Shown in pieces: positions 22,214-60,697 of a DNA stretch of 64,000 nt. Source of the stretch: an uncultured Clostridia bacterium (GTDB taxonomy: Bacteria > Bacillota > Clostridia > Christensenellales > Borkfalkiaceae); NCBI GenBank assembly GCA_947628675.1, contig CANRAR010000002.1:1-64000 (forward strand). The letters run 5' to 3'. The position numbers and the translations under genes are program-made. The first letter of the stretch is position 1, and every line of letters begins with the position of its first letter. Under the pieces are notes generated by a model that did no database searches, was not told where the DNA came from, and was given only the letters and a program-made list of their open reading frames with translations.

Positions 22214-22412
22214 GCTGTAAATTACTGCGCGGAGCAAAACCACGCTTTTGCGGCAGCGCACTCAATTTGCGCGACACTTCGCGCTTAATGACTTTAAGAA
22301 CATCTCTATTCGCGGGCGAACCGTTGAGAGATGCACAAATTCAGTCCTCACGAAAATTCTTTGCCCGCAGTATGCCGCCTGCAAGGCTCTGTATAGAAAG
22401 AATTTTGTGAAC
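22214..22412 (-). ncRNA. Structured ~199-nt repeat element, copy A
   Basis: This segment aligns with 60047-60244; the left 56 nt align without gaps and total lengths differ by 1 nt. On the minus strand it begins 1 nt after the araD stop. Its first arm ACAAAATTCTTT pairs with AAAGAATTTT about 35 nt later. Inside is a small hairpin GCCT-TGC-AGGC (GCCC-TGC-GGGC in copy B). GCGGGC inside the loop can pair with GCCCGC outside it (GTGGGC/GCCCAC in B), making a pseudoknot. Later hairpins are GCGCGA/TCGCGC (GCCGCA/TGCGGC in B) and GCAAAA/TTTTGC (GGCGGAA/TTCCGCC in B). Compensating changes in stems argue for a functional RNA. I do not recognise the family; a small non-autonomous mobile element with folded ends is the main alternative. 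Confidence 0.7.
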
Positions 22413-23111
22413 TTACTTTTTTTGCCCGTAATATGCATTTTTCCCGTGCTTGCGCTGGTAGTGCTTCTCCATCATGAACTGGTCGGCGCGGGCGGCGTGA
22501 GGATTGATCTGCTCGGTGAGGAACGCCATCTTGGCGACCTCCTCGATGACCGTCGCGTTGTACACGGAGTTATCCGCGTCCTTGCCGAAGGCGAACACGC
22601 CGTGGCTCTTGATGAGCACCCCCGGCACTTCGAGGGGCTTCAAAGAGCAACTGCGGAACTTTTCGATGATGGCAAGCCCCGTGTTCTTCTCGTACTCGCC
22701 TTCAATTTCCTCCTTGGTGAGCGAGCGGGCGCAGGGAATGTCGCCGTAGAAATAGTCGGCGTGTGTCGTGCCGTAGAAGGGAATGGCGCGCCCCGCCTGT
22801 GCCCAAGCCGTTGCAAATGTGGAGTGCGTGTGCGTCACGCCGCCCACTTCGGGAAACGCCTTGTAAAACTCGATGTGCGTGGGCGTATCCGACGACGGGC
22901 GGAGATCCCCCTCCACCACCTTGCCATTGAGATCGACGACGACCATGTCGCTCGCCTTCATGCCGTCGTACTCGACGCCCGAGGGCTTGATGACGATAAG
23001 CCCCGTCTTTCTGTCGATGGCGGAGACGTTTCCCCACGTGAAGAGCACGAGTTTGTGCTTTACGAGGTCCAGATTTGCCTGCAATACTTTTTCTTTCAAT
23101 TCTTCGAGCAT
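22413..23111 (-). CDS. araD: L-ribulose-5-phosphate 4-epimerase
   Basis: It converts L-ribulose 5-phosphate to D-xylulose 5-phosphate, feeding the pentose phosphate pathway. The 232-residue protein has the class II aldolase fold marks: [21 protein letters not shown], the zinc ligands in [12 protein letters not shown], and [18 protein letters not shown] lies about 8 nt before ATG 23111. It follows araB by 17 nt and is certainly cotranscribed with it. The structured repeat begins 1 nt after its stop. Confidence 0.97.
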
Positions 23112-33548: not shown

Positions 33549-33559
33549 AAATTTTGCTG

Positions 33560-33736
33560 AAAAGAGGAGCGGAAGAACATGAGTACCGCCGTTCGAGGGA
33601 GCGCAGGGCTGCCCGCGGAGAGCGGAGGGAAAGGGTATCTCCGCCGAAATGCGACGTTTCCCCTGCCCCGCCGCATTGGAAGTACGGGAGAATACCCGCC
33701 CTTCTGTCGCCGACATTGCGGTGAAGCGCTTTTTGG
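33560..33736 (+). promoter_or_regulatory. Lysine riboswitch (L-box)
   Basis: The leader matches the lysine aptamer in order: AGAGGAGCGGAAGAACAT then GAGTA (consensus GAGGUGCGAAC...AGUA), GAAAGGG, CTCCGCCGAA (consensus GCGCCGAAG), GCCGCATTGG, CTGTCGCCG and the closing strand near GCGCTTTTT. An intrinsic terminator follows at 33767, so lysine binding should cause early termination. The genes downstream make lysine, which fits. The U to A change within GAGGUGC is unusual. Confidence 0.75.
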
Positions 33737-33766
33737 TGTCCCCTCGGGGCAAAAAGGGCTCTGTAT

Positions 33767-57862: not shown

Positions 57863-59082
57863 ACGCGCCTCATCTTGGCAATGTAGAACCCCGCCCCGAA
57901 CGCCTTATCGGGCAAAAACTGCACCCCATGTGCCGTTTTTTCGTGTTCGAGGGGGGAAGATACGGGCTCCGCTATAAACTCCGCGTGTCCGCGCAAAAAG
58001 GCGCCGACCGTCCCGTCGTTCTCGCACGGCAGAAGGGAGCACGTCGAATAGTACAGCGCGCCGCCGCGCTTCACATACCGCGCGCAGTTCGCAAGAATTG
58101 CAAGTTGCGTCTCCCGCAGCCCTACAAGGTCTTCCTCTTTTTTATTGAGGGGAAGGTCGGGGTTCTCGGCAACCGTCCCCAGCCCCGAGCACGGCGCATC
58201 GCACAGTACCCCGTCAAACGCGCCCTCCCACGCGGGGTCGAACGCGGTGCCGTCCTTCTCCACCGCGGTCACATTTTCCGCGCCCATGCGCGCGCAGTAA
58301 CTTCGGATGAGGGCAACGCGGTGCGGGTGCAGTTCCGCGGCGGTCACGTGCCCGCACTTTTCGGCGAGGAGCACCGATTTCCCGCCCGGCGCGGCGCAGG
58401 CGTCGAGCAAATTTTCGCACGGCTCCACGGCGTCGCATATAGCCACGCTCCCCACCGATTGGAAGGTATACTCGCCGCGGTCGAACCCCTCGTCCCGCGC
58501 GAAATTTCTGAAAATTTTGAGGGTCTCAAATGGCGTATCGATGTGCTCGCGCCCCAAATACTTCTCCATACCCCGCGCAAACCGCACCGCAACGCCTTGG
58601 CTCTTTGCAAGCACAATGTCCCGCACCCGCTCGCCATACGCCTCGCGCAACATCTTCACCGCAAACGGCGGAAAATTGCTCTCCACCGAGAGCCCCTCGT
58701 CGCCCGCGGGCAGTACGACTTTTTCCGCGTTGAACCGCCGCAAAAAGGCGTTCACGAAGCCCGCCATGCCGCCCTTGCCCATCTTTTTGAGGAGGTCCAC
58801 CGCCGTATCCGTCACCATGTAGCGCGGTTTCCCGAGAAAGATGAGGTGATAGAGCGCGATCTTCAGCAAGATGCGCACGGCCGCCTTGGGCGATTTTTCG
58901 GCGAACGTTTTAATGCACAGCGAAAGGTACCCGTCGTGCTCCAACACGCCGTACACCGTCTTCACCGTTCGGGCGCGGTGCAGTTCCTCGATGGGCTCCT
59001 CTGAAAGAGCAATTTTGAGGTGCGCGCCCTCGCCGTACACCCGCGCCAGAATGCGGTACGGGTCATAGAACGGGTTGGTCAA
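57859..59082 (-). CDS. rsmB: 16S rRNA (cytosine-967-C5)-methyltransferase RsmB
   Basis: The 407-residue protein has an N-terminal NusB-like helical domain (about 1-130, ILLKIALYHLIFLGKPRY) and a C-terminal methyltransferase with DACAAPGGKS, CDAPCSGLGT holding one catalytic Cys, and STCSLLPCEND holding the other. It starts at TTG 59082, with AGGGGG about 7 nt upstream, and overlaps the end of fmt by 20 nt. It overlaps rlmN at its 3' end. Confidence 0.95.
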   Translation of the reverse strand: MTNPFYDPYRILARVYGEGAHLKIALSEEPIEELHRARTVKTVYGVLEHDGYLSLCIKTFAEKSPKAAVRILLKIALYHLIFLGKPRYMVTDTAVDLLKKMGKGGMAGFVNAFLRRFNAEKVVLPAGDEGLSVESNFPPFAVKMLREAYGERVRDIVLAKSQGVAVRFARGMEKYLGREHIDTPFETLKIFRNFARDEGFDRGEYTFQSVGSVAICDAVEPCENLLDACAAPGGKSVLLAEKCGHVTAAELHPHRVALIRSYCARMGAENVTAVEKDGTAFDPAWEGAFDGVLCDAPCSGLGTVAENPDLPLNKKEEDLVGLRETQLAILANCARYVKRGGALYYSTCSLLPCENDGTVGAFLRGHAEFIAEPVSSPLEHEKTAHGVQFLPDKAFGAGFYIAKMRRV

Positions 59083-59992
59083 AGCGATCCCCCTTTTGTA
59101 GTTTTCTCCCGTTACAAAAGTCCCGCGCGCTCATTCTTCTGCCGCCCGCGGGCTGCAATTCGGTAACGGAGACCGCCCCCTCGCCGCACTTTATGATGAG
59201 CCCCTCCTTCGCGGAGGCCGCCACCACGGTGCCCGCGGGAACGTCCGCATCGCAGGGTATTTCCTCGGCGAACCAAAAATTCAGCGTGAGATCCCCCACC
59301 CTCGCAAAGGCAAACGGCGAGGGCGAGAGCCCGCGGATAAGGCAACTCACCTCGCGCGCCGTCCTCGAAAAATCCACCTCGGTGCGCTCCACCTTCTTGC
59401 AGGTGGACCCCTCGCCCTGCTTTTGGAGAACGACCCCGCCGCGCCCGATCCTTTCGAGCGCCTCGGTGATGCACTCCGCCGCCATGCGCGAGAGCCTCTC
59501 TTCGAGGGTGCCGCAGTCGTCGCTGTCGTAGATGGGCGTCTTTGCTGCAAGCAGCATATCCCCCGTGTCGAGCCCGAGTTCGGTCTTCATAATGGTGACG
59601 CCCGTCTCCCGTTCGCCGCCGATGAGGGCGCGGGCAATGGGCGCCGCGCCGCGGTAGGCGGGCAGGAGCGAGGCGTGGATATTCCACACACCCATGGGGA
59701 ACAAATCGAGTACTTCCTGCGTGAGAATTTGCCCGTATGCGCACGTCACCATGAGGTCGGCATGGAGCGCCGCGAGTTCGGCGGCGTTGTCGCGGATGCG
59801 CGAAAATTGCAGCACGGGCACCCCGAGCCGCTCTGCCTCTTCCTTGACGGGCGGCGGCGTCAAAATGCCCTTTCTGCCCTGCGGCCGATCGGGCTGGGTG
59901 ACGACGGCAACGAGCGCTTCTCCGTACGCCTCGTAAATTGCTTGAAGGGCGGGCACGGCAAATTCGGGCGTCCCCGCAAACACAATTCTCAC
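59063..59992 (-). CDS. fmt: Methionyl-tRNA formyltransferase
   Basis: It formylates initiator Met-tRNA, creating the substrate later removed by the peptide deformylase encoded upstream. The 309-residue protein has FAGTPEFAVPALQAI, the catalytic Asn/His in NIHASLLPAYRGAAPI and an Asp in ELGLDTGDML, then a C-terminal tRNA-binding domain. It begins at GTG 59992, preceded by AGGAG about 8 nt away. It is separated from def by a 252-nt gap holding a structured repeat. Confidence 0.96.
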   Translation of the reverse strand: MRIVFAGTPEFAVPALQAIYEAYGEALVAVVTQPDRPQGRKGILTPPPVKEEAERLGVPVLQFSRIRDNAAELAALHADLMVTCAYGQILTQEVLDLFPMGVWNIHASLLPAYRGAAPIARALIGGERETGVTIMKTELGLDTGDMLLAAKTPIYDSDDCGTLEERLSRMAAECITEALERIGRGGVVLQKQGEGSTCKKVERTEVDFSRTAREVSCLIRGLSPSPFAFARVGDLTLNFWFAEEIPCDADVPAGTVVAASAKEGLIIKCGEGAVSVTELQPAGGRRMSARDFCNGRKLQKGDRFDQPVL

Positions 59993-60046: not shown

Positions 60047-60244
60047 GCTGTAAATAATGTGCCTTAGGCGGAATTCACTTCCGCCGTGGGCGACCCAATT
60101 TGCCGCATACCTGCGGCTTAATGACTTTGAGGACGAACTATTCGTGGGCGAACCATTGAGAGATGCACAAACTAACCCCTCACGAAAATTCTTTGCCCAC
60201 AGTATGCCGCCCGCAGGGCTCTATATAAAAAGAATTTTGTGAAT
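60047..60244 (-). ncRNA. Structured ~199-nt repeat element, copy B
   Basis: Counterpart of 22214-22412. On the minus strand it begins 1 nt after the def stop. Shared landmarks include TTCACAAAATTCTTT, GGCGGCATACTG, GTGCATCTCTCAA, GAATAG and CATTAAG. The sequences between differ mainly in paired positions. The GCCGCA/TGCGGC hairpin and the 7-bp GGCGGAA/TTCCGCC hairpin replace different stems of copy A at the same places. It occupies most of the def-fmt gap. Confidence 0.7.
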
Positions 60245-60697
60245 TTAGTCCGCATTGCGAATATTCGTCGCCTTGTCGGTATAGAGTATCCCATCGAGGT
60301 GGTCTATCTCATGGCAGATGGCGCGGGCGAAGAACCCGTGCGCGACGAGGGAAAACCTGTCGCCCCGCCGATCCTGAAAGACGATCTTCACCTTGTCGGG
60401 GCGGGTGACGGTGCCCGCCTTGCCGCGCACCGAGAGGCACCCCTCCGCCCCCGTCTGCTCGCCCTTTTGCCAGACGAACACGGGGTTCACGAATTCAAAG
60501 TAGCCCTCTTCCACGTCCACGACGACGGCGCGGATGGGAACGCCCACCTGCGGGGCGGCGAGCCCCGCGCCATCCTCCTTTTTGAGGGTCTCCTTCATAT
60601 CGTCGAGGAGGGCGGCAAGTTCCGCGTCGAACCTCGTCACTTTTTCACATTTTTTGCGGAGGACGGGATCGCCCACCTGCACAACTTCTCTTATCAT
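60245..60697 (-). CDS. def: Peptide deformylase
   Basis: It removes the formyl group from new proteins. The 150-residue protein has motif 1 GAGLAAPQVG, motif 2 EGCLS with the metal-ligand Cys and motif 3 HEIDHLDG with the two His ligands and catalytic Glu. GAGG precedes ATG 60697. It follows priA by 7 nt. The distance to fmt is enlarged by the repeat element. Confidence 0.96.
   Translation of the reverse strand: MIREVVQVGDPVLRKKCEKVTRFDAELAALLDDMKETLKKEDGAGLAAPQVGVPIRAVVVDVEEGYFEFVNPVFVWQKGEQTGAEGCLSVRGKAGTVTRPDKVKIVFQDRRGDRFSLVAHGFFARAICHEIDHLDGILYTDKATNIRNAD

Follow-up and report, generated by a model that had tools for sequence, protein, structure and literature searches.

What kind of element places matching sets of hairpins into two gene junctions of an uncultured Clostridia bacterium, one between araA and araD and the other between fmt and def? 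Both copies, here called A and B (Table 1), lie in the window, the 64,000-nucleotide stretch of DNA that was analysed. The initial annotation had read them as a structured RNA of a class that it did not recognise, with four stems kept by compensating changes and a predicted pseudoknot. The two copies are present where it had placed them, and the four exchanges from A to B are found in the sequence: GCCT/AGGC becomes GCCC/GGGC, GCGCGA/TCGCGC becomes GCCGCA/TGCGGC, GCAAAA/TTTTGC becomes GGCGGAA/TTCCGCC, and GCGGGC..GCCCGC becomes GTGGGC..GCCCAC. The difference between GCAAAA and GGCGGAA, although real, reflects an exchange between entire versions of the left module, which are seen repeatedly across the genus, and not a series of point compensations. 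Read on the + strand, copy A (z = -3.10, with 1 of 200 shuffles as good) and copy B (z = -2.97, with 2 of 200 as good) both form better folds than their dinucleotide shuffles, as is also the case for copy B read on the reverse strand (z = -3.15). For shorter stretches taken from four copies, the z values were -3.04, -2.09, -1.73 and -1.51, the latter two being weaker.

Table 1 Parts of the two repeat copies and their neighbouring genes in the window
Feature	Position	Strand	Remarks
Copy A, whole repeat	22214..22412	+	+ is the element's reading direction; read from the sequence
Copy A, setting	araA 20597-22057; araD 22413-23111	araA -; araD -	element lies between the two genes, antisense to both
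Copy A, P1	22226-22230 / 22256-22260	+	TGCGC / GCGCA; encloses P2; P1 and P2 together span 22226..22260
Copy A, P2	22234-22239 / 22246-22251	+	GCAAAA / TTTTGC; inside P1
Copy A, P3	22269..22284	+	GCGCGA / TCGCGC
Copy A, middle hairpin	22301..22333	+	CATCTCT / AGAGATG; loop holds small hairpin around GCGGGCGAACCG
Copy A, right-terminal hairpin	22348..22410 (arms 22348-22362 / 22397-22410)	+	TCACGAAAATTCTTT / AAAGAATTTTGTGA; loop holds inner GCCT/AGGC stem
araD stop codon	22413..22415	-	TAA; 2 nt off copy A terminal stem
Copy B, whole repeat	60047..60244	+	read from the sequence
Copy B, setting	fmt 59063-59992; def 60245-60697	fmt -; def -	element lies between the formyltransferase gene fmt and the peptide deformylase gene def
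Copy B, P1	60060-60063 / 60089-60092	+	TGCC / GGCG; encloses P2; P1 and P2 together span 60060..60092
Copy B, P2	60067-60073 / 60079-60085	+	GGCGGAA / TTCCGCC; inside P1
Copy B, P3	60102..60117	+	GCCGCA / TGCGGC
Copy B, right-terminal hairpin	60180..60242	+	TCACGAAAATTCTTT / AAAGAATTTTGTGA
def stop codon	60245..60247	-	TAA; 2 nt off copy B terminal stem

No family of Rfam 15 matches the repeat at gathering score, in agreement with the earlier reader's failure to recognise the class. The only match in the window at that score is a lysine riboswitch (RF00168, 81.6 bits, 33554-33739, + strand) located away from the repeat, and local scans at low thresholds returned one match each (E = 1.4 and 1.5), to unrelated families. 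A group II intron was considered and dismissed, with no Rfam match at gathering score. Word searches of the open-licence literature found no published description of the repeat.

The two window copies belong to a large, interspersed and modular repeat family of about 190 nt. In the source genome (1.53 Mb in 34 contigs, 93.9% complete), a DNA search gave 24 matches at E ≤10, 15 of them with E <1e-8 and both window copies among these. The same kind of search across 61 genomes gave matches in 26, all within the 37 genomes of the same genus, and none in the 24 genomes of other genera. The initial annotation had also proposed a search of the genome and its relatives with a covariance model, and such a model, R1, which covers the stems P1, P2 and P3, detects the repeat in 31 of the 41 genus genomes searched, where a single genome can hold as many as 79 matches and the source genome holds 14. 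Run with strict filters against 151 genomes of the order, R1 returned, among the matches listed, four of the six genus members listed and one marginal outsider (G048, E = 0.004). Since this sole listed match beyond the genus is a lone hairpin, occurrence elsewhere in the order was rejected. The commonest left module, used as an exact pattern that favours one version, occurs in at least 120 stretches of the genome_contigs collection; the 80 matches listed all come from uncultured Clostridia bacterium isolates named Lapin-nnn, the French word for rabbit, which suggests a rabbit-gut origin. In total, 301 unique left modules were gathered from the loci. The phage and plasmid collections gave no match at E 1e-5, and viral_contigs held no exact match to one left-module pattern; a phage or plasmid origin was rejected on this basis. 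That the repeat might be a product of chance or of assembly is practically out of the question, as it recurs in many genomes and at many sites throughout the genus and stands out against shuffle, shift and permutation controls.

In element direction, a copy consists of an A/T-rich start, P1 around P2, P3, a middle that comes in at least two versions, about 50 or 57 nt up to the terminal stem, and, at the right end, a long terminal hairpin of the form TC...GA with A or AA behind it. The median length across 162 copies, counted from where the left module starts to where the terminal stem ends, is 187.5 nt; the terminal loops of these copies, as delimited by the script, range from 3 to 283 nt with a median of 26. 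A terminal hairpin lies near 214 of 263 left modules, while 15 have a distant match that resembles chance, 17 have none and 17 are cut by the end of the stretch. The right-terminal hairpin exists as dozens of differing self-complementary stems, a feature that is new here: 77 distinct outer-10 stems occur among 215 copies. The 69 arm-loop versions listed for P3 include some that are unpaired or that the script framed wrongly. Versions of the left module, the middle and the terminal hairpin occur in mixed combinations, some copies stand in tandem about 170-200 nt apart, and at two loci (L006 and L051) the terminal arms come from two versions and match only partly. The left boundary is not exact, and no target-site duplication was found.

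Is this pairing maintained? Covariation is strong in P1, P2 and P3 as well as in the terminal stem. In an alignment of 20 sequences picked in one register, 97.4% of the cells of P1-P3 are paired, compared to 86.3% after shuffling, and controls slid along the alignment pair at 34-50%. Both sides have changed in 8 of 17 pairs, a count that none of 500 shuffles reached and in which, as in R1, other P2 versions and longer P3 stems are under-weighted; for the number of further pair types, 22 of 500 shuffles did as well. The claim of a structured repeat with compensating changes thus holds beyond chance. A MAFFT alignment of 50 of the 52 copies with the 57-nt middle (L101 and L175, which carry another middle, were omitted by hand) has changes on both sides in 9 of 10 predicted pairs; one version does not share the same P3 and has C-C at one pair in 9 of the 50 rows. 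A broader alignment of 47 of 59 chosen representatives and the two window copies mixes registers between left-module versions and was therefore kept out of the counts. For the terminal stem, positions 5-10 were held out of the choice of hairpin, and in the 54 different arm pairs that 90 copies supply they are Watson-Crick paired in 88.6% of cases, as opposed to 50.3% (maximum 57.4%) when the arms are permuted.

The pseudoknot fared less well. The GCCC loop that it involves occurs in 27 of the 288 left modules examined; both extension pairs of GGGC/GCCC are kept in only 11 of these, at least one is broken in 9, and the GGGC partner is absent from 7, so that the pseudoknot does not stand as a general feature. 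A narrower loop pattern, which omits loops such as TTCGCCC, gives 8 copies that keep the pairs, 8 that break them and 5 without a partner (n = 21). The change from GCGGGC to GTGGGC also fits a small local hairpin, in which CGG-GCGAA-CCG becomes TGG-GCGAA-CCA, and all three of its pairs (with G-T allowed) are present in 31 of the 61 copies that have the motif. Neither the pseudoknot nor the small hairpin is universal.

The initial annotation took the compensating changes as a mark of selection on RNA structure, and here only the pairing itself is borne out. Selection on one RNA strand should leave more G-U than A-C exceptions on the selected strand. When hairpins were chosen by Watson-Crick pairs only, the terminal stem has 22 G-T and 15 A-C exceptions and P3 has 6 G-T and 17 A-C; the held-out positions of the terminal stem have 11 and 5, respectively. 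Taken together, the pair exceptions show no clear RNA-strand bias and do not speak for selection acting on a single RNA strand. As such, selection on DNA hairpins, selection on either RNA and palindrome-correcting copying are each compatible with the pairing. These counts bear directly on the idea that the repeat is a structured non-coding RNA, either trans-acting or self-standing, which is transcribed in element direction and dispersed by copying. Protein or tertiary contacts would then be made by its conserved stretches outside the stems, namely CCCAATTT as well as CTTTGA, GAGATG and CCTC of the 57-nt middle. The conservation of such stretches between covarying helices in the 50 copies of the 57-nt version speaks for this idea, as do the covariation of the stems in the P1-P3 alignment and the base of P1, where T-G is the commonest pair (43 of 50 copies) and favours the + strand at that position. 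We nevertheless regard it as rather improbable: overall, the exceptions do not separate the strands, the stretches around the two window copies have no sigma-70-like site, the middle occurs in unlike versions, and 10 of the 41 genus genomes are without a match.

As for its position relative to genes, the right end of the repeat often lies a few nucleotides from a stop codon, antisense to the gene in question. Measured on 135 of the 162 copies with a terminal hairpin (those with a right flank of at least 900 nt, with genes represented by ORFs of at least 200 aa, and with homologous sites of related species kept in, so that the counts are not independent), the right end is within 5 nt of a facing stop codon in 33, within 10 nt in 45 and within 20 nt in 52, whereas control positions shifted by 30-500 nt reach these distances in 4, 6 and 15 of 1,299. 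Within 500 nt, 74 of the 135 right ends face a stop codon, 47 a start codon and 14 neither; two thirds are more than 10 nt from any facing stop. Of the 102 copies (among the 162) that have at least 900 nt of flank on the left, none begins its left module within 20 nt of the end of a long ORF; the true left border may lie elsewhere than at this start. Some copies end at a start codon, as at L054, where the GTG start of a gene that we take to be rbgA-like lies within the right end. Another kind of right-end neighbour is seen at L010 (about 1670-1760), where a copy ends a few nucleotides before a riboswitch-like leader, presumably an FMN riboswitch by its motif. The placement at stop codons might in part reflect selection against other insertions rather than targeting.

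A hairpin directly behind stop codons calls to mind a transcription terminator that would end the transcript of the upstream gene. Of the copies whose facing stop is at most 20 nt away, 41 have enough left flank to be placed, and 10 of these lie between convergent genes, as would suit this function, while 20 lie between genes of the same direction, which does not, and 11 have no long ORF nearby on the left. Copy A is among the few copies with a T run on the + strand, with seven T at 22417-22423, 7 nt behind the terminal stem, and there is one terminator-like site in its left module, on the - strand. However, runs of at least five T within 15 nt of the terminal stem, found in 5 (+) and 6 (-) of 162 copies, are no commoner than in the background (40 of 1,620). 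The pattern scans for terminators around copies A and B cover loops of 3-8 nt, and the terminal hairpins are thus beyond their reach. As judged from the T runs, the terminal hairpin does not look like an intrinsic terminator, and we consider this explanation very unlikely.

Comparison of homologous junctions indicates that the family has not stayed in place. A def gene was matched in 38 of 41 genomes, and 30 loci were fetched, of which 28 could be assessed; the left module is present at the def junction in 3 of these, the source copy included, and in none of the other 25. At several def loci without the repeat, the def stop codon abuts or overlaps the next start. At the araD site, 8 of 30 loci have the left module at the same place and a ninth has the hairpin only; these nine right ends differ from each other, except that those of L249 and L260 are nearly alike. 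The source genome and two related ones, G003 and G008, often have a repeat at corresponding gene ends: the L002 site carries a different version in each of the three, and at the L004 and L013 sites the version is unchanged in G008. Sites with and without the repeat, together with version switching at homologous gene ends, imply that the family moved or was exchanged after the species split. Mobility is thus suggested by dispersal and by occupied and empty sites. At three repeat-free sites (L292, L306 and L310), a short right-end-like stretch lies beside the abutting gene, possibly a remnant or deletion scar.

What might have moved the repeat? Short elements derived from IS200/IS605 have end hairpins, are dispersed and possibly follow a single-stranded-DNA logic. 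In a similar manner, the repeat could move as single-stranded DNA and have its hairpins recognised by an HUH (Y1) transposase, as for REPINs, with pairing kept at the DNA level and perhaps aided by palindrome-correcting replication errors. Pair exceptions without a clear strand bias, end hairpins, dispersal, tandem copies and the mixed arms at L006 and L051 are all in line with this. Yet the source genome, at 93.9% completeness, yielded no Y1 transposase (PF01797); such genes occur in 11 of the 41 genus genomes, and the repeat is about equally common with them (8 of 11) and without them (23 of 30). TnpB is over the cut-off in 0 of 41 genomes, with two weak matches below it and none in the source genome, and no gene was found inside the repeat across 263 left modules. 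This account is accordingly unlikely. Nor does the repeat pass as an IS200/IS605 derivative, with no Y1 or TnpB gene in the element and none tracking it among genomes. The reverse transcriptase PF00078, found in 6 of 41 genomes and not in the source genome, likewise does not track the repeat, and a retron or retroelement was dismissed. Of Y1, reverse transcriptase and TnpB, none follows the repeat as a mover among the 41 genomes.

The reading that we favour, with a probability of roughly 60%, is that of a non-autonomous, REP- or BOX-like repeat that belongs to one Clostridia genus and puts a stable hairpin immediately after stop codons. It would spread, or would have spread, among gene junctions, its right end settling at the end of a gene, and the mRNA of the abutted gene would then carry a stable hairpin just past its stop codon. 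By analogy to REP elements near stop codons, such a hairpin could insulate the termination of translation or protect the 3' end of the message. This effect, in turn, would make the insertion tolerable or even useful and keep the pairing under selection, and gene conversion, that is, exchange among copies, would be the likely source of the mixed versions. A related but improbable scheme is a gene-end-seeking element, in which a predicted enzyme inserts the unit at stop codons in one orientation and the terminal stem constitutes a changeable recognition or identity part that is swapped or rewritten at old sites.

Bacteria commonly carry small interspersed repeats, and the question arises whether the Clostridia repeat is one of the known kinds. 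REP/BIME elements and REPINs are likewise high-copy palindromic intergenic repeats, many of them just behind stop codons, a placement shared here by one third of the right ends (45 of 135 lie no more than 10 nt from the stop that they face). According to passages of one report, a significant share of REPs lies 1-20 nt from the end of an ORF, REPs less than 16 nt behind an ORF can lower translation, and in E. coli 446 of 4,072 predicted REPs are within 15 nt of an ORF end (PMC12306157). REP units, however, are described as 20-40 bp in size in an excerpt of another (PMC3733652), whereas the Clostridia repeat is about 190 nt long, comprises several hairpins, has a preferred orientation to the gene and comes with many terminal-stem versions. 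It further differs from REPs and REPINs in its relation to a cognate Y1 transposase, none being found in the source genome. The BOX element of Streptococcus pneumoniae is introduced in part of a further source as a composite interspersed repeat with modules in varying numbers and a predicted secondary structure (PMC3049150). The Clostridia repeat also combines its modules in varying ways, a likeness drawn from the description of BOX; a terminal hairpin in many versions and a placement at stop codons are absent from the BOX descriptions in those passages (PMC3049150). A ribosome termination structure, a stable mRNA structure directly behind stop codons, is presented as a widespread gene feature in PMC7518266; the likeness to it is the stable structure right behind the stop codon, with the difference that here it is brought by a repeat. 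With the short IS200/IS605-derived elements, the Clostridia repeat shares end hairpins and dispersal but not the link to Y1 or TnpB. As such, the tests made do not show membership in the REP or BOX family, and the repeat works most like the REP/BOX type.

Copy number, modular swapping, the many versions of the terminal stem and the position at stop codons, antisense to the gene, were all lacking from the initial annotation, which covered a single window. A repeat that combines several covarying hairpins with a preferred orientation, and whose terminal hairpin lies only a few nucleotides away from stop codons, would constitute a natural experiment in how mobile DNA settles harmlessly at gene ends. 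Moreover, dozens of stem versions and their switching at homologous sites would allow one to ask what keeps the pairing: selection on RNA, DNA hairpins or copying errors.

Further short G+C-rich repeats are nested in individual copies, in the left module (L054 and L055), in the middle (L160 and L109) or in the terminal loop (L086 and L087), and some terminal loops contain other inserted repeats. Small repeats of several families seem plentiful in the genus.
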